Shown: one piece after another, positions 912 through 43,132 of the stretch
Layout: each line of letters begins with the position of its first letter
Numbering within the stretch: the stretch's first letter is position 1
Assembly (NCBI GenBank): GCA_947359465.1
Contig: OX375878.1
Coordinates: 80,703,627-80,767,626, forward strand
Length of the DNA stretch: 64,000 nt
Direction of reading: 5' to 3'
Source: Metellina segmentata
Taxonomy: Eukaryota; Arthropoda; Arachnida; Araneae; Tetragnathidae
Made by a program: the position numbers and the translations under genes
The notes under the pieces: generated by a model
Databases searched by the model: none
Told to the model about the DNA's origin: nothing
The model's input: only the letters and a program-made list of their open reading frames with translations

Positions 912-1167
912 ATGGCATCTAAAGGATATGAGAAGTGTCAAGAGGGTACTTCTAGGCGGTTTAGGCAAAATGCAGTCCTTACTTACCTGAAAACCTACAA
1001 GAGTTACCTAAAGGGGACCGATAAATACTGCGAGAAGATTCTTAAGAAACTCGCAAAGCACCCGAGTTCTCCACCACCCGTTTCACCCGGTTCACCCGAT
1101 TCATTCATCAGTGAACTGACGGAAGAGGATATCAGTGTTGCCGGTGACAGAGTTTTAGATGGGTGGA
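912..1167 (+). CDS. Exon 1 coding part, copy A
   Basis: Encodes residues 1-85 plus one base, beginning MASKGYEKC. The open frame continues beyond the donor gga|gtaagt, but downstream is SINE sequence, so the donor is preferred. Against copy B I count nine replacement and one silent codon differences. Confidence 0.75.
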
Positions 1168-4100: not shown

Positions 4101-7100
4101 CTCTGGAAAATGTTTCATTCCTACCCTAAATTTTTAGGTGGCGTTAAAATTGTGGATGAACACGTGAAAAGTCACCTCGAAGATTTCGGAAACGATTTTG
4201 AAAAGGGCAGTTTGGATGAAGAGAATCTGCTTGGGGAGGCTGCATCCAAGAAGCCGAGTCGGCTGAAACGCTTTTTCACGATTATGCACCTACGCTCTCG
4301 CAAACCGAAAGAAGATGAAGCGGATAATAGGAAGACCTTTGTTAGCCGCTTGTCCCATTTTGTGCGCAAGGAATACGAAATCTTTAGTACGTTCTTTGAT
4401 TTTGGTATTTCAATTTATGGAATTTATGTTGATGCCAATACACTCTATAACAAAAAAAATCGACGCACCCAGAAGTAATTATCCGATTGCTTTGAAATTT
4501 CGTTTGTAAAATTGTTTTGCCCAAATGATTAAAATTTGGTGTCCAATGAATGAATAATGCGATCTCCAGCGCATCGGAACTGCGCATCCAGCAGATGTAT
4601 ATAAGGAGTGGTTCTTGTTTAAAATTTCTGCTGCATTGCGATTTAGGGTACCATTCAACGACTGAAAAAAATGCCTCGCCGCAGGATTCCAGCTCATTAC
4701 GGGCAACTTTCAGAGTTTAAAATAGGTCGTATCATTGAATTGAAAGAGGCAGGTTAGGCAAATAGGAGAATCGCTCGTCATGCGAGTCGGAGCGATGCGG
4801 CGATTAGAAGATGAGATGCTGACAAGAGTGGGTGGACAATGGCAGATTTCAGCGTCATGATGGTAGCGGTCGACGTAGGGCCACAACAGATCGCGAGGAC
4901 AGAGTGGTTGTAAGATCAGCTGTCATAGCGCCTGATTCAACGGTATCAACCATCAGTCGTGCGACCCACACGAGTGTCCATCTTGACCATTCACAGACGA
5001 CTGGGAGAGCGAAATCTACACTCGTACCGACCGTTACGCCACCTGCCACTGACACCTACACACTGTCGAGCCAGATAACAGTGGTGCTTGGCTCGATCAG
5101 GCTGGAATGATGCCGACTGGGGACGTATAGTCTTTAGCGACTAATCCCGCTTCCAACTGTGTCCTGACGATCATCGAAGAAGTGTCTGGAGACGCCCAGG
5201 GCAGCGTGCCGATCCTGCTTTCACTATTGCACGCCACACGGGCCCTCAACTAGGAGTTATGGTCTCGGTTGCCATTTTCCCTTGATAGCCAGACCCCTTT
5301 GGTCGTCATAAGAACACTTACTGCACAGCGGTACGTTGACGACATTCTGAGTCCTGTTTTGCTACCGTTCCTTTCGCAGTATCCTGGGCTTATTTTTCAG
5401 CAAGACAATGCCAGACCACATACGGCACGTGTTGCTATAAACTGCCTTCAAACTTGTCAAACACTTCCTTTGCCAGCCAGATCACTAGATCTCTCTCCCA
5501 TCGAGCATGTCTGGGATATGATGGGAAGGCGACTGCATCCAGTAGGGAATGTTGATGAGGTAGTCCGACTATTGGAGCGAATTTGGTAAGAAATACCGCA
5601 AGAGACCATCCGGGAGCTTTATCGGTCTATGTCACGCCGTGTGGCAGCTTGCATCTAGGCTAGAGGCGGGTCAACACCTTATTGAGCTCGTTACTGTAAC
5701 TCTGAAATAAATCATTCAATTGTTCTGTAATTTTAATAGGTAAGTTTCTATTCTGTACATAATTTTCCTATCCACCAATATTTGTCTCCATCGGACAACT
5801 CCTTCTTGGTGCGTCGATTTGTTTTGTTATAGAGTGTACTTACAGGTGGAAAAAAACTCCATGCATTTACATCCTTTAAGAACGGGATTTTCGAGAAGTG
5901 GAAATTAATAGTTTTTTACCGTAAACGTCGCTCTTAATGCCCTGATGCATTCTTAACATAGGTTCGTGACAAAGCTTAAAAAAAATGTCCGGTCAGAATG
6001 CGATTTTTTTTTTCTTTCCTTTACCTAGTATGTAAAATATTTCAAAATTCAATTTTAAGTGCATTGTTACCCACAACACCCCTAACTGTAAATTCCAGCC
6101 AACGATTACGCAGTGATTAGTATATTCCTACTACTAAAGAAATAATAGCCTTTGTGCTTTTTCCGGCGAAACGTTAGTTCAACTACCCACTGCGAAACGT
6201 CTGGCGTCAACTCCTAGTAGCCCGAACTCTTTCAATATTTTTAAACTGCCTGTTAGCCCTGTGAGCGCTCTGGTACACGGTATCCATTTTAAACCGTAGG
6301 TTCGTTTCTAATCAACCCTAGTGTTGCAAAAAAATCGCAGTCAACCCAAATACAGTATTATTTTAGACATATATGGCGTCCACATATGGGGCACAAATAT
6401 TGCATATAAGATGAAGGGATCAGTTAAATATGCAGTATAACTTTACCCGACGCTATAATATACGACCGCTATCGTTATATATGGGAAATTCCATCACAAC
6501 TATCCCCTAACTCGGAGGGGCTATAGAATCATTTTCTCTTGGATACCAATTCAAGCTGGGATTACCGGCAATGAATGCTGTAAATTTATTGAGTCTTTGT
6601 GTATACCTTACAAAGATCTCGGACAAAATGTCGGACGTCATTTGGAATGAATGGAGTGTCCAGAGTAAAAAACTCCACATGATTCAACCTAATGTCTCAT
6701 TTTGTCTTTCTTTGTGTTCTCGTCGTCTAGACGTAATTTTAGTTAGGCTCCTTATCGGACAATCGAGAATTACTCGTCAGTACTTGCTGGAAGGGAAAAT
6801 CCTCCTTTGTGCCATCACTGCAACGCAGCTGTTACAATATAGCATTTCCTAACTTCATGTCCTCGTGTTATAGTATTTTTCATTCAGTTTTTTTAAGACT
6901 TCCTCATCTAGTTTGTCCGCCTTGCTGGGTAATCCTCCACACTCCCGGTTTTTTTATGATGTTCTAAAATTTTAAAATATTTATAGTTATCATCTTCATA
7001 TGCCAAATGCCTATCGCTTCATCGGAACTTTATATTATGATCTTGAGGAGGATAATTCTACACATTTTTAATTCAAGAATACTGTCAAGCTCCCCACGTA

Positions 7101-10100
7101 CTTTAAATTTACTTTTATTCAACTGGATAAATTCTTGAATATTTTATTGATTTTACTGGGACAAATTTCGCCTTGTGTCTAAAGCAGCTTGTCTACTATT
7201 GGACCTTGAGCCATGAAACCCAAACCAACCTTCTCCGACTCGTATGAACTATAAATTAAGGTACGAAATGTGCAATACAAATTATTTCGGGAAACAGTCG
7301 CCCCTACGAAATGGGTATCCTCGAATTCGTGCCACTGAAGGAGGTAAGAGAGTTGTAATATTAATTTTTTTTTCTGCACTTTCAGAATCCAAGCTGGGGG
7401 TCCGCAATCCCCAATCTTTCGTTCCCAGGCACAACACCCCTGTTCTGGAAGATCCCAAAGCCACCAAAATCGAGGGCTTGATCCAGGACGTGCATATTAC
7501 GCAAATCGGTATTAGAATCTTGGGTAAGTCGGTTCTTTGCTTAATAATTCCTTTTAAACCTCGGGCCGCAGTAGCCCGGTTGGAAAAGTAACTGATTCAA
7601 CGAAAGACGGTCGTATACAAAGGAGAACAGTGCACGTCAAATCTGTCGTTGTCTCGAATATCCTCGCTTTGGTGTGGAAGTTTGGAGAGTGCATTGCCAG
7701 CTCAAGTGCTGTCTGGTTTGTTCTGACTATATCTCAAACTTGCATGGTGTTATCCTCGGATCTTTGGGAATTGAACCCGGACATTGTATCAAATATACAT
7801 TGAGTTGCTCCAGTGCGACGTTAATTAAAATACCTGCCTTTAAACCCTCCAGGTGGCGGGACGTGGTAGCACGGTTGGAAGTGTAACTGATTAACGGGGT
7901 TGCAAAAGAGACGGCTGGAGTGTAAATGCCAGCTTGGGTGTGACCTCGTCATCTAGCCGTGGTTCAGTTGCGTATTTTCCTGATTTTTTTTTGCCTTGGA
8001 GACGGGTACAGGATTGTCGCCAATAGCCCATTGTGTTTCTCCAGTGCTACATTAATTAAAATACCTACCATCCTGGTGGTTTATCATCGAAAACATCTTG
8101 TAGTAGCCAGCCTGATGCACAAACCTGTTCCAAACTCGTCAGTTTTAGGCAGGGAACATTTGTTTTTCCCGCTTGAATCTCTTTTTCCCTAGTAACAATG
8201 GGGCAGTTTTGTTTCGACGAATTATCTCGTTGGAACCACTTGGAAGAATTTGACAATCTTAAACACTTGCAACCACTTGAACGAATATGGTGTAAGGGGC
8301 AACTTAACCTTTTAGACTACGGCCGGTACATCAATTGTACCTTGAAAGTTATAAGAAACTCGCCAAGAAAGAGGCGCGCCTGTTGTATCTACCCGTAGTT
8401 AATAGGTAAGTCACTTCGGAACGATTTTGCATCCCGCCGCATAAGAAATTGTGAAGTTTCTAGTTTTATTCTAAAAACTAGATGAATGACCCTCCGGCGT
8501 TACTCGGGTTTCAAATATGACCGAGACATTTCCCTAACACTCTAATAAACAAACCTTGTAGAACGCGTTTGCATGTCTAATTATTGCATTAAAAAATACT
8601 TTTTAAATTGGGGCTTCGAGACTTTATTTTAGGACTACCTGTGTGCCTATTTCCATGGCTACAAATTGGCCCGAAGGCGGGAAAGAAGTAACCTGTTTTT
8701 TCCGCAGTGTTCTAAAGTATAAGGGTACCTAATGTGGTGTATATTTGTAGATAATATATATATACAGACATATAAATTATATATTTAAACTTGAGAAATT
8801 AAACTAAATCAATCTGTTAAATTTATGAAGATTAACTTAATTTCTCCTTAAAATTTGAGGTCGTAAATACCAGGTTTTTAAAAAATTGGCTTGTATTGTT
8901 TCGCGGATTTTGGTCAATGTTCTTGCACTTCCACTAATCTTTATTGATGTGTTAATCTAAAATTGATACACCTGCTACTTTCTTAAATTTCAGAAAATAA
9001 AATATTCGCTTTTCGTATGGAGTTTCTACATTTAAGCAATACACTAAAGCTAAAGCCCAGTGACTTGATGGATGAGACTGTATCTGCGGACATTTTCAAT
9101 AGGATGCAAGATCTATTGCGATATAAATTGAGCATCGACATAATGATTACCACGCTGGGTAAGTAAAATATAAATCTTAATGTGCAATATATCTTTAAAT
9201 TTAAACTCTTCGGTACGTGATCTTTAGTTGCATACATCGCCCTTCTCATTACAGCTGCGTGCACATGTTCCGTCTGTTTCTTTTTTTTTTCAGTAATTAG
9301 GGGGGCTCCGCCCCATGCTTGCTTAAGATCACCAACCCAAGGGGATTGCTACGCAATCCCATTTGCAATGCTTCGCAAACAAACATTTATTACGCAGAGT
9401 GAATCTCTTGGACAGCGAAACTATCTGAATAATTCGTATAATCCTGATTTGACTCCATGACGTCACATCGAGGGCTTCACCATCTGCTCACTTACGCTCG
9501 CCGACCCCCGGGGATTGCTGAGTGATCCCGTTTGGTTGGCGAAGCAAACTAATACTTTCGCAAGTGATTTCACTTTTTTTACTTTAACACTTAATGCACC
9601 CTAAACTAACAGCCGCATCAGTAAAAAACCTTCTGTATCTTATTCCCTGTACAATTTTAAGTAAACCGTGTTAATCTCCTAACTTTGCAATCTGAGCCTT
9701 TTTCCTCGCCGAATAAAAAGAAATCGTTTTTATGGCAATTACGATAAATTTGATATCTGGCATACCCGATAGTCAAAAATACAACCCACAAGTGCCTGCT
9801 CCGCGAACTAAAAAAATACGAAATTTGTGTGACCAACTTTTGATGTCATCGAATTTATGAACCAATTTTAAAAAGAATTGTACCGTAAGAAAGGGTACAT
9901 TCTGATGTATATTGCGATATTTTCAAAATTAAAAACTAATATTAAGATATAGATACGATAATTTTAAAAAATAACGAAAATGTCCCGATTTTTTTCAAAT
10001 TTCAAAAAAATACTAAGAACCAAATTAAAATTTCTAAAAAAAAAACTCGACGAGCTGCAAAAATTTACGTTGAGGGGTATTTTTTAAAATAAAACTCACG

Positions 10101-11751
10101 ATTGAAGACTGAAAATGTATGTGTTTTGCTCACTCGCGGAAGAAATTCGGCACTTGATAAACACTGAACTAAGAGCCGCATCGGAAAAAAAATCTCAATA
10201 ACTGTCCAGGGAATACGATGTAGAACAAACCATGTTCATTTCTTTTTCTGATCCGTACTTTCTCGGGAAACCGTCTAACAATCGAGCTAAACAACGGTTT
10301 TCAATCCGGCTGTAACTTTTTAATATAGAGACTCGGTTCGAAGGCTTATTACGTGGTTGTGGGGAAGCATGAATCCTAACTTATTGATTATGCACAGTGA
10401 TATATAAAATCCTAAGCTTCGTTAGCCAATCGGATAAGAGGATTCTCAAGACCACATTTACCCTCCAAAGAGCTTTCGACAGCGATTCTGCCCTCATACT
10501 CTGTCATTAGATGGTCGATGGTACAGTCGCGGAATAAAAAGAAACCTTTATTTCGAACACTATTTATAATAGAGCAAATTTAAAGATGGCATTCAATAGG
10601 GCAACGAACTACTCGGGACGCCGTCCCAATCTGAATCGGGAACGCCTTTGTTCGACAGGAAGCAGTTCACGAGCCTTTCGTCTGACGCCCATCGCAATCA
10701 TGGGAACTAGAGGCTCGCACATGCGTACAACGTTTACGGGTTGTGCACGTTAAATATGTGGTGTCAAATGTCTCGTATTGGCGTGGAAGTTTGTACAGAG
10801 GGGTGCCAGTCACCCGCCAGTGGTTCAAAATTACGTGCTGTCCTCGGTTCTTTCCCATCGAGATTGATCCTGGACCGTCGCCTATGGCCCGTTGTATTGC
10901 TCCAGTACAACGTTAATTAAAGTGCCTACCCCTAAAAATTAAAGTGTCAAAAAATCCTCATTGGACGCCTTCATGTCTGAAATGAAGTAGTGTGGATATT
11001 AATATATATTGGCAGTTCTTTACAATCTTTTTGCGTGAAAGGTCTTTTGGTCTAGTTTTGTATTGAGAGGAGAACTCGAAAGTTGCATTTAATCCGTGGA
11101 ATAATTTCAATTTTCCAATTGAGAATTGGAGCCTTCAATGAAACTGAAATAAATCTAACCTTCATAGAACTGATGGAAATATTTAAAGTATCGTTTTGAT
11201 TTTTAGACTCGAAACTCGAAGAGTATGATCTTTTCGGTGGCTCTAAATGCATATGCCATATGGAGTATTTGCGCCAGCTGGAGAATGGAGAGGAGTCTGA
11301 CGAAGACATGACTGACGAAGGACACTCTTCGAAACGGGGCGAAGTTCCTCAAAAAATTCAAGGAAAGCGTTCGACTTTAGAGGACGATGCTTCCAAGGAA
11401 ATGGACCATTCCCCAGCGAAATTCTTAAAGAAGCTAGAATCCGGAATGATTTGGGAGGAACCCAAGTTCGCCAAGCTGGTGGATATCGAATCTCCTGTTA
11501 AGCAGCAGTCGGAACCCAAGGTAGGCAAGCTGGTGGATATCGAATCTCCTGTTAAGCAGCAGTCGGGACCCAAGGTCGGCAAGCTGGTGGATATCGAATC
11601 TCCTGTTAAGCAGCAGCAGCAATCTGCGGAGGATGAAAAGATCCAGGATGATGAAAAGCCAAAGAGTGAATCGGAAAAGACGGATGAAGAAGACTCCAAA
11701 GATGGCATCTCGAACCTTATGCGCAAGACCTCGATGGAAGATTTGACATAA
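912..11751 (+). CDS. Five-exon orphan gene, copy A (450 aa, spliced)
   Basis: The product is unknown; I recognise no domain, signal peptide or membrane segment. Joined exons are 912-1167, 4138-4386, 7386-7523, 8994-9158 and 11207-11751, totalling 1353 bases. All four introns are phase 1, with donors gtaagt, gtacgt, gtaagt and gtaagt, and acceptors tttttag, tttcag, tttcag and ttttag. Junction codons read S, K, E and D. The protein is hydrophilic: a Lys/Tyr-rich N-terminus, a Pro/Ser stretch (about residues 51-63), a basic patch in exon 2 (KKPSRLKRFF), and an acidic/Lys C-terminus with three 18-residue repeats starting KLVDIESPVKQQ. This suggests an intracellular, partly disordered protein. An intact paralogue lies 31.7 kb downstream and differs mainly by replacement changes. 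No transcript evidence is available, so exon choice is inferred from frame, splice signals and agreement between copies. Confidence 0.75.
1237..1372 (+). repeat. SINE with internal deletion (copy A)
   Basis: The head (gttgcgagtccgaatcc, box-B-like) and the 3' end (gttgctccag, then ttaattaaaatgcctacc) are present. About 143 bases of body kept in copy B (32,930-33,205) are missing between the gtgg and accgtcatc junction. Confidence 0.7.
1511..1602 (-). repeat. SINE body fragment, antisense
   Basis: The reverse complement reads as the SINE 3' half. Nearly identical in copy B at 33,336-33,427, so it predates the duplication. Confidence 0.65.
2120..2368 (+). pseudogene. piggyBac transposase N-terminal remnant
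   Basis: The frame encodes SKEEIERILLND, followed by runs of Asp, Glu and Ser, the kind of acidic N-terminus seen in piggyBac transposases. No ATG stands at the expected start, and the DDD catalytic region is absent from the element. It cannot be functional. Confidence 0.65.
2768..3259 (-). mobile_element. Non-autonomous Helitron-like insertion inside the piggyBac element
   Basis: Read on the minus strand it starts TCTCTACGATTATAAAAG after a host A. The start closely resembles the Helitron at 23,046 (same tctac-attataaaag start, same later tctatggca and atttggcacacag motifs). Near its other end is a hairpin (ggtttgc gaa gcaaacc) followed by gtag and T. A canonical end would read CTAG, so the terminus is imperfect. 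Confidence 0.5.
2951..3090. repeat. 21-bp minisatellite
   Basis: About five near-identical tandem copies of a 21-bp unit containing ctaaacaacaataattcaa, within the Helitron-like insertion. Its translation gives a repeating ELNYCCL pattern on the minus strand that is not a real protein. Confidence 0.85.
4138..4386 (+). CDS. Exon 2, copy A
   Basis: The acceptor cctaaatttttag precedes GTGGCG; the first two bases complete the Ser codon begun in exon 1. It encodes 83 codons, including an acidic stretch (LEDFGNDFEKGSLDEE) and a basic patch (KKPSRLKRFF). The donor is ttta|gtacgt. Past the donor, copies A and B lose frame agreement, which supports the exon end. Against B I count 13 replacement and four silent codons, about 9% nucleotide difference. 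Confidence 0.75.
4441..5836 (+). mobile_element. Tc1-like transposon in intron 2 (copy A)
   Basis: TA duplications flank it (4439-4440, 5837-5838). Terminal inverted repeats begin CACTCTATAACAAAA and include cgacgcacc near their inner part. The 1396-bp length is normal for Tc1. The same insertion sits in copy B, so it predates the duplication. Confidence 0.85.
4671..5685 (+). pseudogene. Decayed Tc1-like transposase (copy A)
   Basis: It starts MPRRRIPAHYGQLSEF, with N-terminal helix-turn-helix territory, and ends with LIFQQDNARPHTARV, then SPIEHVWDMMGRR and SMSRRVAACI, the second Asp and the Glu regions of the DDE catalytic domain. Several frameshifts and stops break it, so no active enzyme is made. 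It is a cut-and-paste transposase family protein. Confidence 0.8.
6530..7235 (+). pseudogene. 3' end fragment of a LINE (copy A)
   Basis: Broken frames show the end of a LINE ORF2: an RNase H tail (SHVGI-like, then GNE), a SRITRQYLLEG segment and a Cys/His-rich end. A 3' tail of the cagcttgtc...ggacctt...ccatgaaaccc type follows, as at 22,690-22,745. Shared with copy B at 36,245-36,905. Confidence 0.65.
7386..7523 (+). CDS. Exon 3, copy A
   Basis: The acceptor ctgcactttcag precedes AATCCAAG and the donor cttgg|gtaagt ends it. It is 138 bases, phase 1 at both ends, so it could be skipped without a frameshift. It encodes a Pro-rich stretch and IEGLIQDVHITQIG. Five replacement and two silent codons differ from copy B. 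Confidence 0.8.
7562..7850 (+). repeat. tRNA-headed SINE in intron 3 (copy A)
   Basis: The head has a box-A-like tagcccggttgg, followed by a body with tgcacgtcaaatct, gtggaagtttggagag and the 3' end gttgctccagtgcgacgtta. Also in copy B at 37,240-37,510. Confidence 0.8.
7858..8070 (+). repeat. Second SINE copy in intron 3 (copy A)
   Basis: The box-A-like gtagcacggttgg head follows the previous SINE directly. The body is shortened, and the end reads ctccagtgctacattaattaaaatacctacc. Also in B at 37,530-37,750. Confidence 0.7.
8193..8398 (+). other. Conserved intronic ORF, possible cassette exon with stop (copy A)
   Basis: After a plausible acceptor (tttttccctag) the phase-1 frame reads TMGQFCFDELSRW and ends CCIYP-stop. 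Eight bases after the stop is an excellent donor, aatag|gtaagt. If included it would end the protein early. In copy B the acceptor AG is CG (37,869-37,870), though the ORF is conserved. Its 2% divergence matches introns rather than the accelerated exons, so it may not be coding. Confidence 0.3.
8994..9158 (+). CDS. Exon 4, copy A
   Basis: The acceptor tcttaaatttcag precedes AAAATAAA and the donor ctgg|gtaagt ends it; 165 bases, phase 1 at both ends. Only phase 1 keeps it open. It encodes ENKIFAFRMEFLHLSN and SADIFNRMQDLL. Nine of 55 codons differ by replacement from copy B and one is silent, whereas the next ~130 intron bases are identical in both copies. Confidence 0.8.
9296..9565. repeat. 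Hairpin-rich repeat module, two tandem units (copy A)
   Basis: Two units contain short perfect hairpins with small loops, such as ggggctccgcccc and gggattgctacgcaatccc. The second unit ends gtttggttggcgaagcaaac. Copy B keeps one hybrid unit (38,990-39,090), as expected if unequal recombination removed one. A similar hairpin ends the Helitron-like insertion near 2,785, so a Helitron origin is possible. Confidence 0.5.
9600..10570. other. Intron 4 sequence without recognised feature (copy A)
   Basis: AT-rich, no credible ORF. It matches copy B at about 39,110-40,170 closely. Confidence 0.6.
10738..10935 (+). repeat. SINE body fragment (copy A)
   Basis: Body motifs tgcacgttaaat, ggcgtggaagtttgtacag, ggttcaaaattacgtg and the 3' end attgctccagtacaacgtta are visible without a clear tRNA head. 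Matches 40,598-40,790. Confidence 0.75.
11207..11751 (+). CDS. Exon 5 (last coding exon), copy A
   Basis: The acceptor gatttttag precedes ACTCGAAA; the frame runs 181 codons to TAA. It starts DSKLEEYDLFGG and contains CICHMEYLRQLE. A Ser/Asp/Glu-rich linker follows, then three tandem 18-residue repeats (KLVDIESPVKQQSEPKVG type) and the end RKTSMEDLT. Copy B has two repeats plus a two-codon insertion near residue 28 of the exon. Replacement changes cluster in the first 60 codons; the stretch after IQGKRSTLED is nearly unchanged. Confidence 0.85.
11455..11620 (+). repeat. 54-bp coding tandem repeat, three copies
   Basis: Each unit encodes KLVDIESPVKQQ plus a linker (SEPKVG, SGPKVG, then QQSAED). 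Nearly identical DNA suggests recent expansion or homogenisation. Copy B has two units (42,909-43,010). Confidence 0.9.
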
Positions 11752-11908: not shown

Positions 11909-11914
11909 AATAAA
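11909..11914 (+). terminator. Polyadenylation signal, copy A gene
   Basis: AATAAA lies 158 bases after the stop codon and is followed by a T/G-rich stretch. The same signal is in copy B at 43,292-43,297, so transcripts probably end just downstream. Confidence 0.65.
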
Positions 11915-12600
11915 GTTTGTGTCTGACATGAATATCTGCTTTTTATTTCGACGTCTTTTTCAAAAACTTCCCGTTCAAGCTTGGTTAAGTGGTCTTGGAT
12001 GTTTTCGTGCCTCATCTGTATTGCGACCACGTGTTTGCCACAGGTAGTAAAACCCCACGGGAAAGAATCATGAGGGTGCCTCTGGTTCGTGAAGACGGTA
12101 CACACCTAAAGATGTGCCTCATTGAGGGATTAATTTTGGGAATATATTCATGTAAATTAATTGGGGCTTTGAGTTGAACAAAATTTAAATCTGGAGTGTT
12201 GCGAATTTACAATATTTGAGTTTTTATGTAGTGTATATCTTATCAACATCCATTAGAACTATGTCACTTGACACTGCGTTATGTCGGGCGCCAGCTCGTA
12301 GTACCGAAACCTCTTGGAATCTCAATATGTTGGTGTAAGGGGGGGGGCGCCTTCAAACTCTAGGGGTAACTAAGAATGACAAAATAAGTAGTTAAAAAAA
12401 AACAGTGTTGATGTCTTGCATGGGGGATGATTTTCAATTTCTTGCCGCCACTGATTCAAGGGCGTGGAAACTTTTAAATAATCTAGTTCTAAGGCCAATT
12501 TTTATCTATAAATCTGAGCTTTCATTAGGTTTCAGTCAAATGCAAACAAACTCAAATCGATTTACATGCAAGTTTTACTGCGAGACTTCTAAAAACCGAA
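11915..12600. other. Downstream flank without recognised feature (copy A)
   Basis: No convincing ORF. The unoccupied target site of the copy B LTR element lies near 12,302-12,307 (gtaccgaaacc). Confidence 0.6.
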
Positions 12601-12611
12601 GTAATATTAAA

Positions 12612-13700: not shown

Positions 13701-13704
13701 GCAG

Positions 13705-17795: not shown

Positions 17796-17999
17796 TAGAT
17801 ATTTTTAGTGTAACCCATATTCAAGTGATTACCTGTGGTCCATCTAACGATTGCTTGAACTCTGTTACTCCTCTCTCATCTCTCTGCCAAATTATACAAA
17901 CTTATTTAAGGAATTTTGTGAACGGTACTAGCTTTCATAATAGATTGAACTGCAATATGTATATGAATTGTAACTATATACACGTATTGATGGTAATAT

Positions 18000-18803
18000 A
18001 TGTATTTATATGGGAAGATCCTTCCCACCAAACATTTGATATTGACGTTCGACACACCAACCCTGCCGACGCGAATCACAGCCGCATATCTGAGCTGCCC
18101 AGTCCGAGCTTATGTCCCGAATCCTCTGCGCTGTTTCGGCTGCCAGAGTTTCGGACATTCAAAAATCTCCTGTCGCAGCCAGATGAAATGTGCCCGTTGC
18201 GGTGATGTGGGTCACGAGAGTGACGGCTGCTCCGCTACGTCTCATTGCGTTAACTGTGGAGGAGACCATCCCTCATTTTCCAGGACCTGTCCGAAATGGG
18301 TTCTCGAGAAGGAAATTCAATCTGTGAAGATTGCACAAAAAATTTCTTATCCCGAGGCCCGAAAAATAGTCGATTCTCGAACCCCCAAAACAGGAATATC
18401 TTATTCAACAATAGTTAAAAAAAGTTATCAAACCATAGCCACACAAACAGAATCTTCTTCAGCAGTCATTACATCCAATAAAAACTCATCACCTTCCAAA
18501 AACAAAATATCAACTCCCAAATCTAACTCACCTAAGCAATCCACCAAACAATCATCTGCCACATCCTCAAAAAATACCGATGCTAATTCTCAAATCCCAA
18601 TATCAAAGGAACAAACCAAAAATACTCTTAAACGACCTAAAACTGATGGATCTACTATAAAACTTAAAAATTATAAACACATAAAAAACCTACCAAAAAC
18701 TTCTAAGCATCTTCTTCGGCATGCGGCTGAAGAATTAGAATTAAGTCTCCATGCGTCGGATTTTTCGGAGGACGACGCAGATATAGAAGTAGATTCATCG
18801 TGA
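18000..18803 (+). CDS. LINE ORF1, nucleic-acid-binding protein (5' truncated)
   Basis: Three CCHC knuckles stand in a row: CFGCQSFGHSKISC, CARCGDVGHESDGC and CVNCGGDHPSFSRTC. Before them is AAYLSCPVRAYVPNPLR, a typical lead-in. A long Lys/Ser/Thr-rich C-terminal tail follows. ORF1 proteins coat the LINE RNA. The true N-terminus is missing; the first ATG at 18,000 is probably internal. Confidence 0.8.
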   Translation: MYLYGKILPTKHLILTFDTPTLPTRITAAYLSCPVRAYVPNPLRCFGCQSFGHSKISCRSQMKCARCGDVGHESDGCSATSHCVNCGGDHPSFSRTCPKWVLEKEIQSVKIAQKISYPEARKIVDSRTPKTGISYSTIVKKSYQTIATQTESSSAVITSNKNSSPSKNKISTPKSNSPKQSTKQSSATSSKNTDANSQIPISKEQTKNTLKRPKTDGSTIKLKNYKHIKNLPKTSKHLLRHAAEELELSLHASDFSEDDADIEVDSS

Positions 18804-18821
18804 ACCTCAATCCCCTTCTAA

Positions 18822-32557: not shown

Positions 32558-32597
32558 TATTTTTTTTTGTTTCAGGTTCTCTTGGTAACATTTTGCC

Positions 32598-32853
32598 ATG
32601 GCATCTAAAGGATATGAGAAGTGTGAAGAGAGTACTCCTAGGCGGTTTAGGCAAAGTGCAGTCCTTACTTACCTGAAAACCTACAAAAGTTACCTAAAGG
32701 GGACCGAGAAATACTGCGAGAAGATTCTTAAGACACTCGCAAAGCACCCGAGTTCTCCACCACCCGATTCACCCGGTTCACCCGATTCATTCATCAGTGA
32801 ACTGAAGGACGAGGATATCAGTGTTGCCGGTGACAGAGTTTTAGATGGGTGGA
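32598..32853 (+). CDS. Exon 1 coding part, copy B
   Basis: Starts MASKGYEKCEES; ends at gga|gtaagt. Differs from A at nine residues, including D57 for V57 and K70/D71 for T70/E71. Confidence 0.75.
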
Positions 32854-35800
32854 GTAAGTCATTCCTTGCAGGTTCTTTCAATCTCTATGGGAGCCACGGT
32901 ATCCCGTATATAAAATTAAAAGTTTAGCAGCAGGAGGGTTGCGAGTCCGAATCCAACAAAAAAACAGTATACAAAAGGGGCTGATGCACATTAAATCTCG
33001 TGGCCTTTAATGTATTCGCATCGGTGAGGTGTGTAAGTTTTGAGAGTGGGATGCCAGCTCGGGTGTTGCCTCGTCATCTGACCGTGGTTCAAAACTACGG
33101 GGCGTTGTCCTTGTATCTTTCTCTTGGGGAATTAATCGCGGAACGTCATCAATAGCTCTTTGTGTTGCTCCAGTAAGGCGTTAATTAAAATGCCTACCTC
33201 CCTTTCGCTTCAGTGAACCCGATCTTATGCCAGTCGGGTTCTATAGGATTCAAATTAACCCGGATCGAGTTGATCCTAATCGTTCTTTGAAAAGTGTGTA
33301 ACATTAAATATTGTCAGTAATTGGCTATTTTAATTAGCGTAGTGCTAGAGCAACACGACGATCTATTCACAACGGTTCGGGATCAACCCACTTAGGGAAA
33401 GATCGGATGACCTAATTTTGAACCACTAAATATTATCGGAGAATCCTCTAAAAATTTAAAGTAATCAAAATCCACTATTTCGTATTTAAATATGTGTTTT
33501 GATTAAAAATATGAACTTGCTGAAGCGCCTAGCTATCGGGTGCCACTGTCAAATAACTATAATACCTGACGAAACCGATGTTAAAGTTGTGACGGCCTTT
33601 TAATTAATTTTTTTTTATCGTTAACGGAGTACATCTAGAATATCGTGCTTATTTAAACAATTCCTTGCCTCCCGGTAACTACAGAAAATGCAAGACGGAG
33701 CAAGAACACAAGCGTCCTTCATGTTTATGTTAAATTGTAGTCTCCAACTTGCACAGTGAACAGTTTCTTAAGGCACAACACTCCAACTTTTGTTAGACCT
33801 CGGTCGTTTTTATTTCATGGCAAAAAAAATGTGACTGTCTCTTTCTCTGGAAAATGTTTCATTCCTACCCTAAATTTTTAGGTGGCGTTAAAATTGAAGA
33901 TGAACACGTGGAAAGTCACCTTAAAGATTTCGGAAACGATTTTGAAAAGGGCAGTTTGGATGAGGAGCCTCTGCTTGGGGCGGCTGCATCCAAGAAGCCG
34001 AGTCGGCTGAAACGCTTTTTCACTACTCTACACCTACGCTCTCGCAAACAGAAAGAAGATGCATCGGATAATAGGAAGACCTTTTCTAGTCGCTTGTCCC
34101 ATTTTGTGTGCAAGGAATACGAATTATTTAGTACGTTCTTTGATTTTTATATTTCAATTTATATATGAAATTTATGTTGATGCAAATACACTCTATAACA
34201 AAAAAAATCGACGCACCAAGAAGGAATTATCAGATTGCTTTGAAATTTCTTATGTAAAATTGTTTTGACGAAATATGCAAATGATTAAAATTTGGTGTCC
34301 AATGAATGAATAATGCGATCTGATGCGCATCGGAACTGCGCATCCAGTAGATGTATATAAGGAGTTGTTCTTGAACTGTTGTTCAAAATTTCTGCTGCAT
34401 TGCGATTTAGGATACCATTCAACGACTGAAAAAAATGCCTCGCCGCAGGATTCCAGCTCATTACGGGCAACTTTCAGAGTTTGAAATAGGTCGTATCATT
34501 GGATTGAAAGAGGCAGGTTAGGTAAATAGGAGAATCGCTCGTCATGCGAGTCGCAGCGATTAGAAGATGCTGGCAACAGTAGGTGGACAATGACAGATTT
34601 CAGCGTCATGATGGTAGCGGTAGACGTATTGCCACAACAGATCGCGAGGACAGAGTGGTTGTCAGATCGGCTGTCACAGCGCCTGATTCATCGTTATGAA
34701 CTATCGGTCGTGCGACCCACACACGAGTGTCCATCATGACCATTCACAGACGGCTGAGAGAGCGAAATCTACACTCGTACCGACCGTTACGCCACCTGCC
34801 ACTGACACCTACACACTGTCGAGCCAGATTAGTGGTGCTTGGCTCGATCGGGCTGGAATGATGCTGACTGGGCACGTATAGTCTTTAACGACGAATCCCG
34901 CTTCCAACTGTGTCCTGACGATCACCGAAGACGTCTTGAGACGCCCATGGCGGCGTGACGATCCTGCTTTCACTATTGCACGCCACACGGGCCCTCGACA
35001 AGGAGTTATGGTCTGGGATGCCATTTCATTTGATAACCAGACCCCTTTGGTCGTCATTAGAGGAACTTGCTGCACAGCGGTACGTTGACGACATTCTGAG
35101 ACTTGTTTTGCTACCGTTCCTTTCGTAGTACCCTGGGCTTAGTTTTCAGCAAGAGAATGCCAGACCACATACGGCACGTGTTGCTATGAACTGCCTTCAA
35201 GCTTGTCAAACACTTCCTTTGCCAGCCAGATCACTAGATCTCTCTCACATCGAGCATGTCTGGAATATGATGGGAAGGCGACTGCATCCGGTAGGGAATG
35301 TTGATGAGGTAGTCCGACTATTGGAGCGAATTTGGTAAGAAATGCCGCATGAGACCATCTGGAAGCTTTATTGGTCTATGTCACGCCGTGTGGCAGCTTG
35401 CATCCAGGCTAGAGGCGGGTCAACACCTTATTGAGCTCGTTACTGTAACTCTGAAATAAATCATTCAATTGTTCTGAAATTTTAATCAGTTTCTATTATG
35501 TACATAATTTTCCTATCCACCAATTTTTGTCTCCATCGGACAACTCCTTCTTGGTGCGTTGATTTTTTACAGGTGGAGAAAAAACTCCATGCATTTACAT
35601 CCTTCAAGAACGGGATTTTCGAGAAGTGGAAAGTAATAATTTTTTACCGTAAACGTCGCTCTTAATGCCTTGATGCATTCTTAACGTAAGTTGGTGACAA
35701 AACTTCAAAAAAATGTCCGGACAGAATGCGATTTTTCTTTTCTTTCCTTTACATACTAGGTAAAATATTTCAAAACTCAATTTTAAGTGCATTGTTACCC

Positions 35801-38800
35801 ACAACGACCCTAATTGTAAATTCCAGCCATCGATTACGCAGTGATTTGTATATTCCCACTACTAAAGGAATAATAACCTTTGTGCTTTTTCCGGCGAAAC
35901 GTTAGTTCAACTACCCATTGCGAAAGGTCTGGCGTCAACTCCTTGTAGCCCGAACCCTATCAATATTTTTAAACTGCCTGTTAGCCCAGTGAGCGCTCTG
36001 GTACACGGTATCCATTTTAAACCGTAGGTTCGTTTCTAATCAACCCTAGTGTTGCAAAAAAATCGCAGTCAACCCAAATACAGTATTATTTGGACCTGGC
36101 GTCCACATATATGGGGCACAAATATTGCATATAAGATTAAGGGATCAGTTAAATATGCAGTATAACTTTAACCGACGCTATAATATACGACCGCTATCGT
36201 TATATATGGGAAATTCCATCCAACTATCCCCTCACTCGGCTTAGGGGCTATAGAATCATTTTCTCTTGAATACCAAGTGACGCTGGGATTACCGGCAATG
36301 AATCCTGTAAGTTTCTTGAGTCTGTGTACCATACAAAGATCTCGGACAAAATGTCGGACGTCATTTGGAATGATTGGAGGAATGGCTTTCTTGGTGTTCT
36401 CGTCGTCTAGACGTAATTTAGTTAGGCTCCGTATCGGACTATCGAGGATTACTTGTCAGTACTTGCTGGAAGGAGGAAATCCTCCTTTGTGCCACCACTG
36501 CAACGAACCTGTTACAATATAGCATTTCTTAACTTCATGTCCTCGTATTATAGTATATTTCATTAAGTTTTTTAAGACTTCCTCATCTAGTTCGCCGCCT
36601 TGCTGGGTAATCCTCCACACTCCCAGGTTTTTTTTTTACGATGTTCTAAAATGTATATAGTTGTCATCTCTTCATATTCCAAATGCCTATCACTTTTCAT
36701 CTGTACTTTATATTTTATCAAGACGAGGATAATCCTACACATTTTTAATTCAAAAATATTGTTAAGCTACCCCACGTACTTTAAATTTACTTTTATTCAA
36801 CTGGATAAATTCCTGAATATTTTATTGATTTTACTGGGTCAAATTTCGCCTTGTGTCTAAAGCAGCTTGTCTACTATTGAACCTTGAGCCATGAAACCCA
36901 AACCAACTTTCTCCAACTTGTATGGACAATAAATTAAGGTACGAAATGTGCAATACAAATTATTTCGGGAAACAGTCGCGCCTACGAAATGGGTATCCTC
37001 GAATTCGTGCCACTGAAGGAAGTAAGAGAGTTGTAATATTAATTTTTTTTTCTGCACTTTCAGAATCCAAGCTCGTGGTCCGCAATCCCCAATCTTCCGT
37101 TCCCAAGCCCAACACCCCTGTTCTGGAAGATCCCAAAGCCACCAAAATCGAGGGCTTAATCCAGGACGTGCATATTACGCAAATCGGTATTAAAATCTTG
37201 GGTAAGTCGGTTCTTTGCTTAATAATTCCTTTTAAACCTCGGGCCGTGGTAGCCCAGTTGGAAGAGTTACTGATTCAACGAAAGACGGGCGTATACAAAG
37301 GAGGACAGTGCACGTCAAATCTGCCTTTAATATCCTCGCGTTGGTGTGGAAGTTTGGCGAGTGCATTGTTAGCTCGAGTGTTGTCTCGTAATCTGACCGT
37401 GGCTCAAACTTGCATGGTGTTATCTTCCGATCTTTGGGAATTGAACCCGGACCGTGTATCAAATATACCGTTGAGTTGCTCCAGTGCGACGTTAAATAAA
37501 ATACCTGCCTTTAAACCCTCCTGGTGACGGGACGTGGTAGCCCGGTTGGAAGTGTAACTGATTAACGGGTTTGCAAAAGAGACGGCTAGAGTGTAAATGC
37601 CAGCTTCGGTGTGACCTCGTCATCTAGCCGTGGTTCAGTTACGTATTTTACTGATTTTTTTTTTTTTTTTGCCTTGGAGACGGGTACAGGATTGTCGCCA
37701 ATAGCCCATTGTGTTTCTCCAGTGCTACATCAATTAAAATACCTACCATCCTGATGGTTTATCATCGAAAACATCTTGTAGTGGCCAGCCTGATGCACAA
37801 ACCTGTTCCAAACTCGTCAGTTTTAGGCAGGGAACTGTTGTTTTACCCGCTTGAATCTGTATTCCCCTCGGTACAATGGGGCAGTTTTGTCTCGACGAAT
37901 TATCTCGTTGGAACCAATTGGAAGAATTTGACAATCTTAAACACTTGCAACCACTTGAACGAATATGGTATAAGGGGCAACTTAACCTTTTAGACTACGG
38001 CCGGTACATCAATTGTACCTTGAAATTTATAAGAAACTCGCCAAGAAAGAGGCGCGCCTGTTGTATCTACCCGTAGTTAATAGGTAAGTTACTTCGCAAC
38101 GATTTTACATCCCGTCACATAAGAAATTGTGACGTTTCTAGTTTTATTCTAAAAACCAGACGAATGACCCCCCCCCCTCCCCGGCGTTACTGGGGTTTCA
38201 AATATGACAGACATTTCCCTCTCTAACTCTAATAAACAAACCTTGTAGAACGCGTTTGCATGTACAATTATTGCATGAAAAAAAAATACTTTTTAAATTG
38301 GGGCTTCGAGACTTTATTTTATTACTACTGGTGTGCCGATTTTCGTGGCTACAAATTGGTCCGAAGGCGGGAAAGAAGTAACCTATTTTTTCCGCAGTGT
38401 TCTAAAGTATAAGTGTATTAAATTTGGTGCGGATTGGTCAAACGGTGTATATTTGTAGAGAATATATAAACAGACGTATAAATTATATATATACAGACTT
38501 GAGAAATTAAACTAAATCAATCTGTTAAATTTATGAAGATTAACTTAATTTCTCCTTAAAAATAGAGGTCGTAAATACCAGGTTTTTAAAAATTGGCTTA
38601 GATTGTTTCGCGGATTTTGGTCAATGTTCTTGCACTTCCACTAATCTGAATAATTGATACACCGGCTACTTTCTTAAATTTCAGAAAATAAAATATTCGT
38701 TTTTGATATGGAGTTTCTACATTTAAGCAATACACTAAAGCCAAGTCCCAGTGACTTGTTGGATGAGACTGTATCTGCGGACATTTTCAAGAGGATGAGG

Positions 38801-41800
38801 GATCTATTGCAATATAAATTGAGCATCGACATTATGATTACCACGATGGGTAAGTAAAATATAAATCTTAATGTGCAATATATCTTTAAATTTAAACTCT
38901 TCGGTACGTGATCTTTAGTTGCATACATCGCCCTTCTCATTACAGCTGCGTGCACATGTTCCGTCTGTTTCTTTTTTTTTTTATTTCGGTAACAAGGGGG
39001 CTCCGCCCACTGCTCGCTTAAGCTCGCCAACCCCCTTGGATTGCTAAGTGATCCCGTTTGGTTGGCGACGCGAACCAATACTTTCAAGTGATTTCACTTT
39101 TTTTACTTAAACTTAATGCACCCTAACCTAACAGCCGCATCAGTAAAAAAAACCTTCTGTATCTTGTTCCCTGTACAATTTTAAGTAAACGGTGTTAATC
39201 TCCTAACTTTGCGATCTGTACTTCGTACTTTTTCCGTAAAAAAAAGCGATTCTTTTTCCTCGACAAATGGAAAGAAATCGTTTATATGGCAATTACGATA
39301 AATTTGATATCTGGCATACCCGATAGTCAAAAATACAACCCACAAGTGCCTGCGGAACATGCTCCGCGAACTAAAAAAAAAATACGAAATTTGTGTGACC
39401 AACTTTTGATTGCATCGAATTTATTTATGAACCAATTTTAAAAAGAATTGTACCGTAAGAAAGAGTACATTCTGATGTATACTGCGATATTTTCAAAATT
39501 AAAAACTAATAGTAAGATATACATACGACAATTTTAAAAAATAACGAAAATGTCCCGATTTTTTTCGAATTTCAAAAAAATACTAAGAACCAAATTAAAA
39601 TTTCAAAAAAACTCGACGAGCTGTAAAAATTTACGTTGAGGGGTACTCTTTAAAATAAAACTCACGATTGAAGACTGAAAATGTATGTGTTTTGCTCACT
39701 CGCGGAAGAAATTCGGCACTTGATAAACACTGAACTAAGAGCCGCATCGGAAAAAAAATCTCAATAACTGTCCAGGGAATACTATGAAGAACAAACCATG
39801 ACAATTTCTTTTTTCTGATCGGTACTTTCTCGGGAAACCGTCTAACAATCGAGCTAAACAACGGTTTTCAATCCGGCGGCGGTAACTTTTTTAATATAGA
39901 GACTCGGTTCGAAGGTCTATTACGTGGTTGTGGGGAAGCATGAATCCTAACTTATTCATTATGCACAGTGATATAAAAAATCCTAAGCTTCGTTAGCCAA
40001 TCGGATAAGTGGATTCTCAAGACCACATTTACCCTCCAAAGATCTTTCGACAGCGATTCTGCCCACATACGCTGGCATTAGATGGTCGATGGTACAGTCG
40101 CGGAATAAAAAACACCCTTTATTTCGAACACTATTTATAATGGAGCAAATTCAAAGATGGCATTCAATAGGGGAAATAACTTCTATCTTGCATTCGGATT
40201 GGAGATTGATCCCGGACCTTCGTCAATGGCCCCCTTGTGTTGCTCTGGTACGACGTTGATTATAAATTGCCATTACCCATCTTGCGTATCTCGGCAACTA
40301 AGGTTGCGAGTTCGAATCCAACCAAAGACCGTAGTGTCCGCTAAAGCGCGTATAGATTTGCGAGCCCTTTGATGAAATTATTTTCGCAACTAACTTATCA
40401 GCGATGATGGAGCCTGGAGGTTCGCGAGCAGAAGGAAAACAACGAACTACTCGGAACGCCGTCCCAATCTGAATCGGGTACGCCTTTGTTCGACAGGAAG
40501 CAGTTCACGAGCCTTTCGTCTGACGCCCATCGCAATCATTGGAACTAGAGGCTCGCTAACGGTTCGGCTCGCACATGCGTACAACGTTTACAGGTTGTGC
40601 ATGTTAAATATGTGGTGTCAAATGTCTCGTATTGGCGTGGAAGTTTGTACAGAGGGGTACCAGTCATCCGCCCGTGGTTCAAAATTACGTGGTGTCCTCG
40701 GTTCTTTCCCATCGAGATTGATCCTGGACCGTCGCCTATGGCCCGTTGTATTGCTCCAGTACAACGTTAAAGTGCCTACCCTTAAAAATTAAAGTGTCAA
40801 AAAATCCTCATGGGACGCCTTCATGTCTATCAAAATCTGCACGAACGAAACTTCTGATGGAAACCCCATGTTTTGATGCCTTAAATCGACATCGGTACCG
40901 TTAAATTAGTCTAAACATGAAATTTCATGACTTTAACATTGAACATCTCCCGATATGAAGATGGAAAAGTTCCTGTCAATTTGAGAGATCGTCTCCACAT
41001 TAAAAATTTCTATTCGTAGATCGAGATTAATTTTAAATTACCAGAGTTTTTTCAAGTATGAACATTATTTCAAACTTATTTGTCAGCGCGTGCAATCGAT
41101 CCGCATTATCATGCAATCACATTATGTTTAGTATGCAAATACAAATTATCCGGGGTTTGTAGGACGTTGTTTTTAAGCTTTTGATTGTCCCCTAAATACG
41201 CAATGAGGAAAATTTAATGTAACTCAAACTAACGTTTGGAATGAACTGAGATTTGTATTGCCATATTAAGAGTCCTGATTCGATTCCCATCAAAATTCAA
41301 GGTTCCAAATCGTAATTTTTGCAAACATTCATTTCGTTGATGCAGACTAAAAGCTATTTTTTAAAGATATTGGGTGAGTTTTCTTTTAGTTCTTAAACAG
41401 TAACACTGGTGTAAAATATCGACGCTAAAGGATATATTCCTAAATAAGATTTCTAAAATCTAAAACTACTCGAAACGGCGCGACCTAATGACATGAAATT
41501 TGGTGTCTGAAGTTACATTTTAAGATTCAAAATTGGTGTCAATAGGCCGTTCCCATTTGGAACTATGAAGTTGGTACTCAATTTAATGTGAAGACTACCC
41601 CTTATGCAATTTTTTATTCATTTGAATTTATAGAAGACGTTAGGTTTCTATCAAAAGCCATTTTTGAATGTTCTCTACTCGAGGGAAGAGGGTTGGTTCG
41701 CTTTTATTCCACGGCTGGACGTCTGCACTGTTGGAAAAATCTAGCTTATTGTATTGCTGATTACGTGTTGTAAGGGCTTTGTTGAGGTATCACTGTTTTA

Positions 41801-43132
41801 GTGAACCTTCACAAATGACTCCCTCTAGTGAGTAAAATTTCTGATAGGGGTGGTATAGGGAGGGATGTCGTATATATATGACCCGCCTAAGAATGTCGTA
41901 AGCAAACACTTGACCATTCTACAGTGATGGGGGAAGTGAAGTAATGAGATACTCCTGTATCTTTACCATGCAGTGTCGTCATCTAGAAATATAATGAACT
42001 ATTAGCTAGGGAGACTTGGAGTTATTGTGAACATAACCTTATCCCATTGCAATCCAACCAATACATCGGTAACAAACTATAGTGGCACATCGCTTTTAAG
42101 AGTTCGGAAGACTTCTTTTTGACTTGTTAAAAGTCCGACTCTTCTTTGACAAAAAAATGTGATGCACGTTAAATTCGTAGTTGCCTCAAATGGCCTCGCG
42201 TTGGCGTAGTGTGGAAGTTTGGATAGTAGGGTGTGTTGCCTCGTCATGACATTTGGTTCAAAATTACTTGGTGTTGTGTTCGTATCTTCCCAGTTCCATG
42301 TATGACTATCAATAATTTGACGTTATCAGTCTTGTGTTTAGCGTAGCTTGGCCATATATGGCCCTTGAACCGTAAAACCCATCTTAGCAGATACAAATAA
42401 AATGTCTAAACTGAAGAAATGAAGTAGTGTGGATATTAATATATATTGGCAGTTCTTTACAATCTTATTGCGTGAAAGGTCTTTTGGTGTAGTTTTGTAT
42501 TGAGAGGATAACTCGCGAAAGTTGCATTTAATCTGTGGAATAATTTCAATTTTCCAATTGAGAATTGGAGCTTTCAATGAAACTGAAATAAATCTAACAT
42601 TCATAGAACTGATGGAAATAAAGTATCGTTTTGGTTTTTAGACACGAAACTGATAGACTATGATCTGTTCGGTGACACTAAATGCCCATGCCATATGGAG
42701 TTTTTGCACCAGCTGGAGACTGAAGGGATTGAAGAGTCTGCCGAAGACATGACTGCCGAAGAATACTCTTCGAAACAGGACAAAGTTCCTCAAAAAATTC
42801 AAAGAAAGCGTTCGACTTTAGAGGACGATGCTTCCAAGGAAATGGACCATTCCCCAGCGAAATTCTTAAAGAAACGAGAATCCGGAACGATTTGGGATGA
42901 ACCCAAGTTCGCCAAGCTGGTGGATATCGAATCTCCTGTTAAGCAGCAGTCGGAACCCAAGGTCGGCAAGCTGGTGGATATCGAATCTCCTGTTAAGCAG
43001 CAGTCTGCGGAGGATGAAAAGATCCAGGATGATGAAAAGCCAAAGAGTGAATCTGAAAAGACAGATGAAGAAGACTCCAAAGATGGCATCTCGAAACTTA
43101 TGCGCAAGATCTCGATGGAGGATTTGACATAA
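32598..43132 (+). CDS. Five-exon orphan gene, copy B (432 aa, spliced)
   Basis: Joined exons are 32598-32853, 33882-34130, 37064-37201, 38685-38849 and 42642-43132, totalling 1299 bases, open from ATG to TAA. All introns are phase 1 with the same splice sites as copy A. The protein has the same layout: a Lys/Tyr-rich N-terminus, a Pro/Ser stretch, a basic exon 2 patch (KKPSRLKRFF) and an acidic tail, with two rather than three 18-residue repeats. No domain recognised. Over both genes I count about 57 replacement and 15 silent codon differences. The intact frame across five exons argues that both copies are expressed and selected, though a very recent pseudogene cannot be excluded. Introns hold the shared Tc1, LINE and SINE remnants plus a copy-specific 1.6-kb insertion in the last intron. 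Confidence 0.75.
32930..33205 (+). repeat. Full SINE after exon 1 (copy B)
   Basis: Complete version of the sequence shortened in copy A: gagtccgaatccaac head, body with gagtgggatgccagctcgg and ctgaccgtggttcaaaac, and the 3' end gttgctccagtaaggcgtta. Confidence 0.8.
33336..33427 (-). repeat. SINE body fragment, antisense (copy B)
   Basis: Identical over nearly all of its length to 1,511-1,602. Confidence 0.65.
33882..34130 (+). CDS. Exon 2, copy B
   Basis: Same splice signals as A. Residues SGVKIEDEHVESHLKDFG to CKEYELF. Thirteen of 83 codons are replaced relative to A, five of them needing two base changes. Confidence 0.75.
34189..35568 (+). mobile_element. Tc1-like transposon in intron 2 (copy B), right end lost
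   Basis: Left TA and inverted end are present (34,187 on). The right inverted end stops after ttggtgcgttgatttttt, about 18 bases short of copy A. The transposase pseudogene runs 34,435-35,434, with stops and frameshifts; SIEHVWD-type and SMSRRVAACI motifs are visible. Confidence 0.8.
34435..35434 (+). pseudogene. Decayed Tc1-like transposase (copy B)
   Basis: Same protein as in copy A, starting MPRRRIPAHYGQLSEFEIG. Frame is lost soon after ELKEAG by a stop codon, and the second Asp block reads QQENARP-like. It is non-functional. Confidence 0.75.
36245..36905 (+). pseudogene. 3' end fragment of a LINE (copy B)
   Basis: Counterpart of 6,530-7,235. A frame at 36,277-36,522 reads RLRIGLSRITCQYLLEGGNP and CHHCNEPV, the C-terminal Cys/His segment of a LINE ORF2. 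Confidence 0.65.
37064..37201 (+). CDS. Exon 3, copy B
   Basis: 138 bases, phase 1 at both ends, acceptor ctttcag, donor cttgg|gtaagt. Differences from A include Val for Gly, Ser for Phe, and KPN for RHN. Confidence 0.8.
37240..37510 (+). repeat. tRNA-headed SINE in intron 3 (copy B)
   Basis: Box-A-like tagcccagttgg head, complete body, 3' end gttgctccagtgcgacgtta. Counterpart of 7,562-7,850. Confidence 0.8.
37530..37750 (+). repeat. Second SINE in intron 3 (copy B)
   Basis: gtagcccggttgg head and shortened body with a longer T run (about 37,653-37,670) than copy A. Confidence 0.7.
37876..38076 (+). other. Conserved intronic ORF, acceptor lost (copy B)
   Basis: Starts MGQFCLDELSRWNQ, ends CCIYP-stop, then a gtaagt donor eight bases later. 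The AG that could serve as acceptor in copy A is CG here. All four differences from A change residues, at intron-like frequency. Confidence 0.25.
38685..38849 (+). CDS. Exon 4, copy B
   Basis: 165 bases, acceptor aaatttcag, donor gatgg|gtaagt. Encodes ENKIFVFDMEFLHLSN and SADIFKRMRDLLQ. See copy A for the contrast with the unchanged flanking intron. Confidence 0.8.
38990..39090. repeat. Hairpin-rich repeat module, single unit (copy B)
   Basis: gggggctccgccca, ggattgctaagtgatccc and gtttggttggcgacgcgaac; a hybrid of the two units in copy A. Confidence 0.5.
40176..40439 (+). repeat. SINE-bearing insertion present only in copy B
   Basis: Copy A reads straight from attcaatagg to aacgaactactcgg. 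Copy B has about 264 extra bases here, containing a SINE 3' part (gattgatcccggacc, gttgctctggtacgacgttg) and a box-B-like gcgagttcgaatccaacc. Confidence 0.7.
40598..40790 (+). repeat. SINE body fragment (copy B)
   Basis: Counterpart of 10,738-10,935. Confidence 0.75.
40826..42403 (+). mobile_element. 1.6-kb copy-B-specific insertion in the last intron
   Basis: Flanked by atgtct on both sides, whereas copy A has a single atgtct. The right end has a LINE-type 3' tail (ttagcgtagcttggcc, then gaaccgtaaaaccc), so it may be a 5'-truncated LINE insertion. A SINE fragment lies at about 42,150-42,300. No ORF is supported. Confidence 0.55.
42642..43132 (+). CDS. Exon 5 (last coding exon), copy B
   Basis: Acceptor ttttggtttttag, then 163 codons to TAA. 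Starts DTKLIDYDLFGD, contains CPCHMEFLHQLE, has two 18-residue repeats and ends RKISMEDLT. Confidence 0.85.

Follow-up and report, generated by a model that had tools for sequence, protein, structure and literature searches.

The gene array and its surroundings

The window, that is, the whole stretch of 64,000 nt that was analyzed (C6:80703627-80767626 of a 1.665-Gb genome of 173 contigs), contains two complete gene copies, A and B; coordinates without a contig prefix are positions in this window. Both copies are intact, with five coding exons and GT-AG introns that are all in phase 1, and the open frames encode 450 amino acids in A and 432 in B. This bears out the five-exon, all-phase-1 models, open from ATG to stop, that an earlier note had proposed for this DNA. 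In all five full genes of the family an AG acceptor lies just 5' of the ATG and an AATAAA lies 158-160 nt past the stop codon. The shared acceptor makes an untranslated exon upstream of the start codon likely.

888..889, + strand: copy A, likely splice acceptor AG before the ATG (TTTCAG, then GTTCTCTT), common to all five full genes
912..1167, + strand: copy A, coding exon 1 (ATG, GT donor, phase 1)
4138..4386, + strand: copy A, coding exon 2 (gene model; intronless C5 copies match its junction with exon 3)
4153..4179, + strand: copy A, exon 2 patch with five mosaic sites (P1 groups with B, P2 with A)
7386..7523, + strand: copy A, coding exon 3 (gene model and intronless C5 copies)
8994..9158, + strand: copy A, coding exon 4 (gene model and intronless C5 copies)
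9028..9043, + strand: copy A, patch of exon 4 that resembles a segment switch (A and B differ from P1 and P2 at seven positions within 16 bp)
11207..11751, + strand: copy A, coding exon 5 with stop (gene model and intronless C5 copies)
11457..11616, + strand: copy A, three 54-bp (18-aa) repeats of exon 5 (tandem repeat analysis)
11909..11914, + strand: copy A, likely poly(A) signal AATAAA, 158 nt past the stop
32598..32853, + strand: copy B, coding exon 1 (gene model)
33882..34130, + strand: copy B, coding exon 2 (gene model)
37064..37201, + strand: copy B, coding exon 3 (gene model)
38685..38849, + strand: copy B, coding exon 4 (gene model)
42642..43132, + strand: copy B, coding exon 5 with stop (gene model)
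42899..43005, + strand: copy B, two 54-bp (18-aa) repeats of exon 5 (tandem repeat analysis)
43292..43297, + strand: copy B, likely poly(A) signal AATAAA, 160 nt past the stop

The earlier note had described a tandem pair and had suggested looking for more paralogues. Both genes are real, but they belong to more than a pair: whole-genome searches, with a stretch of exon 4 and the B protein as queries, recovered two further close copies (P1 and P2), a divergent full copy (D), two lone D-type first exons (D1 and D2), and intronless copies. The array comprises five full genes and two truncated ones in about 193 kb, and the frame is intact in four of the five full genes.

C6:80595896-80605178: P1, intact (whole-genome search)
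C6:80649634-80658893: P2, frameshifted by a 2-bp deletion in exon 4 (whole-genome search)
C6:80773507-80788822: D, 477 aa, intact, same layout; begins 5.9 kb beyond the window end
C6:80636003 and C6:80677848: D1 and D2, lone D-type first exons (whole-genome search)

The family consists of two sub-types: type 1 (P1, P2, A, and B) and type 2 (D and the truncated D1 and D2, whose similarity to D ends about 270 bases beyond exon 1). Counted on alignments, the 18-aa repeats of exon 5 number two in B, three in A, P1, and P2, and four in D.

Segmental duplications form a patchwork across the array region, interrupted by apparent transposable elements. About 2.1 kb inside intron 1 of A (1853-3956) is missing from B, P1, and P2, and has ends that we take to be of the piggyBac type. 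A stretch in intron 2 (4638-5706) resembles, by eye, a broken mariner/Tc-type transposase, and since it is present in both A and B it is older than their split. Positions 17997-22502 hold a Jockey/X-element-like LINE, whose 682-aa open reading frame (20454-22502) is about 60% identical to the spider reverse transcriptases that it matches. Farther along, a series of long minus-strand reading frames (48305-52640) resembles the pol of an LTR retrotransposon by eye, and a 73-bp tandem repeat is found in five copies with 97% matches (53270-53635). Across the genome the spidroin N-terminal domain was matched 31 times, while none of 14 control genomes had a match, which marks the genome as that of a spider; seven full-length domains with near-equal scores and frames of 2376-3496 aa lie within 0.5 Mb at C8:33893522-34394795, an arrangement suggestive of a large array of silk genes in tandem.

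The protein was said in the earlier note to be unlike any known family, and this holds within the databases searched. No family protein matched Pfam or NCBIfam above the cut-off or had a credible match in the PDB, and the protein database returned no protein at E<=10 (none at E<=1 among the scored candidates). That database includes Trichonephila, Araneus, Nephila, Argiope, Parasteatoda, and Stegodyphus according to a control search (best 120 of 1782 matches), though the control was a conserved transposon protein rather than a fast gene, and a search that needs shared five-residue words may miss a very fast or unannotated orthologue. Three sets of weak matches were rejected: NCBIfam Gar1 in the repeats (two of four members, best E 0.0017; 12.9 bits for A against a cut-off of 114), Pfam matches of one member each (best E 0.063), and the Rio2 kinase in the PDB (E 0.22 and 0.13 only). 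In the open-licence literature we recognized no paper describing this gene family. Structure models of exons 1 and 2 taken singly are helical, with mean pLDDT of 47.3 and 64.1, too weak for a fold search.

The protein has a pI of 5.5-5.7 and no strongly hydrophobic stretch. Judged by hydropathy only, the first 40 residues of A, B, and D contain no leader-like stretch (highest 19-residue mean -0.36 to -0.50), and the missing leader suggests that the protein works inside the cell. This finding goes against the venom analogy drawn in the earlier note, from which one could assume a secreted venom or silk-gland protein. The genome is rich in spidroins, and the tandem copies, fast replacement, and a segment-switch-like exon patch recall snake toxin genes as described in the ASSET study (PMC2711939). 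Nevertheless, a secreted product is highly improbable given the lack of a leader (an alternative coding first exon is possible, though), the presence of only 4-6 cysteines in 432-477 aa, and the heritable intronless copies, which imply germline transcription.

Divergence of exons, introns, and reading frames

The headline of the earlier note, exons diverging faster than introns, disappears when the whole gene is compared. Between A and B, 86 of 1293 exon positions differ (6.65%) and 409 of 7089 intron positions (5.77%; Fisher p=0.22). Non-repeat coding sequence (79/1056) is likewise no different (p=0.88) from ten 200-bp flanks (136/1853, 7.3%), of which eight are intronic and two lie beyond the coding region, with the 8 columns beside each exon skipped. 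The local counts were essentially correct. Exon 4 has 14 differences over its 165 bases (about 13 had been counted), with nine replaced codons and one silent; the identical intron stretch beside it, put at about 130 bases, has about 118 on the right side as counted on the alignment; and the whole gene has 59 replaced and 17 silent codons, where 57 and 15 had been given. For exon 2 (22/249) the contrast stands against the 150 bases before it (2/150), but not against the 200 bases before it in the five-gene alignment (20/191). The counts came from quiet flanks; individual flanks vary from 6/188 to 24/181. The case shows that an exon-intron contrast based on few flanks can mislead, and the greater divergence of exons than introns that marks venom-type genes is not found between A and B. 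One sub-test favors the earlier note: nonsynonymous changes alone (63.5/828) exceed the whole-intron divergence at p=0.03, uncorrected and in one of seven tables.

The selection tests exclude the exon 5 repeats and the coding sequence downstream of them; only the A-B NG86 omega of 0.87 refers to the whole CDS. The ML values are from home-made codon models. Without repeats, A-B gives an NG86 omega of 1.14 (dN 0.081, dS 0.071; bootstrap 0.67-2.27) and an ML omega of 1.40 (p=0.27), so that the dN/dS above 1 anticipated for this pair comes out at 0.87-1.4, indistinguishable from 1. The P1-B value is similar (ML 1.26, p=0.44), and the P1-A value is low (ML 0.41, p=0.08; NG86 0.37, bootstrap 0.14-0.88).

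Comparisons with D give higher values. By NG86, omega is 1.39 for A-D (dN 0.334, dS 0.240; bootstrap 1.02-1.94), 1.40 for B-D (bootstrap 1.01-1.94), and 1.28 for P1-D (bootstrap 0.96-1.80); by ML it is 2.00 for A-D (p=0.0007) and 1.94 for B-D (p=0.0011). Masking leaves the ML values for A-D and B-D between 1.65 and 2.22 overall (p from 0.0004 to 0.045): 2.22 and 2.17, respectively, for codons at least four from gaps, and 1.65 (p=0.045) and 1.68 (p=0.036) under a strict identity mask. With A, B, and D as three taxa, omega is 1.76 (lnL -2556.37, against -2561.58 at omega 1), and the D branch has an omega of 1.95 (lnL -2555.95, against -2560.88 with the branch fixed at 1). Site classes (M2a over M1a) were rerun with these three taxa, as the four-taxon M2a ignores conversion; the preference for M2a (p=3e-8) falls to p=0.096 after removal of multi-base codons. 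Single sites are therefore not to be trusted, and multi-nucleotide change may inflate the test.

The introns of D give a less clear picture. A comparison by local alignment was set aside because local alignments favor conserved blocks, and anchored 200-bp flanks were used instead. One flank pair, on the right side of exon 2, differs at 92/165 and does not look homologous, and the tests were therefore run with and without it. Nonsynonymous A-D divergence against flanks gives p=0.24 for all flanks, 0.003 without the exon 2 right flank, 0.08 without the right flanks of exons 2 and 5, and 0.27 for intronic flanks without the exon 2 right flank; the table against synonymous divergence gives p=0.057, and synonymous divergence is not below that of the flanks (p=0.39). 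The replacement excess of type 1 against D over intron flanks is thus uncertain.

An alternative explanation is relaxed constraint only: redundant, weakly constrained orphan copies would drift near-neutrally, and an omega near 1 would reflect loss of function, not adaptation. The A-B values fit this explanation, as do the frameshift of P2, the reduction of D1 and D2 to exon 1, and a dN near the intron-flank divergence; a study of spider orphan genes also names it as an alternative (PMC5381867). However, the frames are intact, although unconstrained substitution simulated at A-D divergence gave a mean of 7.7 stops, with 0 of 2000 runs stop-free; at A-B divergence the mean was 3.1 stops, and 4.3% of runs were stop-free. 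The ML omega with D is significantly above 1, and the bootstrap range for P1-A lies below 1. We therefore consider relaxed constraint on its own rather unlikely. The reading frames look to have been kept while amino acids changed at or above the silent rate. The diversifying selection proposed in the earlier note is supported in part, by the ML omega of about 2 against D and by the intact D frame, but not by the A-B omega, the A-B exon/intron contrast, the weaker NG86 values, or the equivocal flanks.

Mosaic and intronless copies

Gene conversion, which the earlier note had offered as an alternative, is also at work. Among P1, P2, A, and B, 83 sites split 2:2 and are distributed 31:26:26 over the three groupings, the pattern of mosaic copies. 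Two clusters occur among them: five sites of exon 2 that unite B with P1 (4153-4179) and seven of exon 4 that unite A with B (9028-9043). The seven differences in 16 bp between A and either P1 or P2 in exon 4 exceed the largest value in 300 shuffles, which was 6. Further dense clusters, among those listed, occupy positions 1847-1863, inside intron 1, and, for P1, the area around 12202-12225 farther downstream; we read both as places where the alignment meets an insertion edge or breaks down. Counted in segments of 60 positions along exon 5, A and D differ 28 times at the start and 0-5 times where the repeats and C-terminus lie, and directly past the stop codon B and D differ at 4 of 190. The repeat-bearing C-terminus is homogenized across types 1 and 2.

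These observations allow a further explanation that dispenses with selection, in which multi-nucleotide and template-switch events, together with unsampled donors, inflate replacements and hence omega. The dense exon 4 patch and the mosaic copies are in line with it; 65 codons carry more than one base difference between A and D, and the site-class signal vanishes without such codons. On the other hand, after their removal omega is still 1.96 for A-D (p=0.0099) and 1.77 for B-D (p=0.026), and we regard segment replacement or conversion without selection as unlikely.

Intronless copies of the family are found on two other chromosomes. Those at C5:18333120-18333758 (+) and C5:19338056-19338694 (-) run from within exon 2, through exons 3 and 4, into exon 5, and the exons join where the gene models predict. 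On C11, a tandem array with a 375-bp unit contains sequence of a D-like mRNA, again without introns: exon 1 is represented by its end, exon 2 in parts, and exon 3 by its start. All four exon junctions are represented, the first only in D-like form. The joins at the predicted borders indicate that the splicing is real and that the mRNA reached the germline, as such copies are heritable only if formed in germ cells or their precursors. The two C5 copies sit in segmental duplicates, 96-98% identical and about 1 Mb apart, and are therefore counted as one event.

Both C5 copies are open for 212 codons, end at the same TAG, and are located downstream of a HIPK-kinase-like exon (PDB E 1.3e-4; Pfam 0 families). 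A chimeric gene with this exon was rejected: when the HIPK-like frame is followed by eye across the acceptor, it runs into a TGA at the junction. The omega between the two copies is 1.05 by ML (p=0.91) and 0.58 by NG86 (bootstrap 0.23-2.24). The simpler explanation is a processed pseudogene duplicated together with its surroundings.

The C11 array (C11:28598400-28611400) is a satellite of 27 consecutive units and degraded pieces. About half of the unit is intronless D-like mRNA sequence, and unit bases 189-367 also match dispersed sites on C8, C10, and C12. Identity to D is 89-91% over 106-107 bp, with one exact match of 25 nt, in a degraded unit. The units are all in one orientation and form no hairpin.

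Proposed history and known systems

The reading that we favor, tentatively and at somewhat less than even chances, is that of a young, lineage-restricted orphan family, intracellular and transcribed in the germline, that was shaped by both diversifying selection and gene conversion. A family restricted to a spider lineage and encoding an acidic intracellular protein would have been amplified in tandem, with its mRNA present in the germline. Selected replacement changes would have separated types 1 and 2 in the body of the protein, whereas conversion and unequal exchange would keep the type 1 copies mosaic, moving short exon patches among them, and would keep the C-terminal domain with its 18-aa repeats alike in both types. 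Against the part played by selection stand the A-B comparison without an excess, the P1-A omega of 0.37, and NG86 values that reach no more than 1.28-1.40 when type 1 is compared with D; the P2 frameshift and the truncation of D1 and D2 are expected under relaxed constraint too.

Stellate/Su(Ste), Dox and its suppressors, and Slx/Sly are amplified germline conflict families. By analogy with such amplified, fast-evolving germline families, the array genes would act in the germline, probably in a conflict of a reproductive or genetic kind. Shared with those families are the tandem amplification (five full and two truncated genes, with mosaic sites that point to conversion), fast evolution, a non-secreted product, and repeat copies derived from the genes at other genomic sites. 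The C11 array differs in its single orientation without a hairpin. In a more specific version, the types would diverge by selection and exon-patch exchange in a germline conflict, and the C11 satellite, whose mRNA-derived fragment reaches about 90% identity with D over the exon 2-3 junction, would act as a source of small RNAs that restrain type 2, comparable to Su(Ste) and Stellate. We consider this version very unlikely.

The exon 4 patch resembles the accelerated segment switch in exons (ASSET) of snake venom genes, in which, as set out in that study (PMC2711939), short exon segments are swapped wholesale between paralogues while the adjoining introns stay alike. In contrast to that system, the array family has no leader-like hydrophobic stretch, a single dense patch, and no general exon excess, and we claim no sequence relationship.

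Closer to home, lineage-specific orphan genes of spiders (PMC5381867) lack database relatives and have an elevated omega, some of them above 1 in pairwise comparisons, and that study weighs both selection and relaxed constraint. Spider orphan genes with an omega above 1 are thus already on record. The array family shares the lack of database relatives and the elevated omega (here an ML value of about 2.0 against D and a non-significant 1.4 for A-B). A gene-wide omega above 1 is uncommon, and two sub-types, mosaic patches, homogenized repeats, retrocopies, and a gene-derived satellite are seldom found together in the orphan family of one genome. Whereas that study compares congeners by transcriptome, the comparison here is among tandem paralogues of a single genome, with two sub-types, conversion, and retrocopies, and it provides a compact case of young spider genes that diversify while conversion pulls their copies together.
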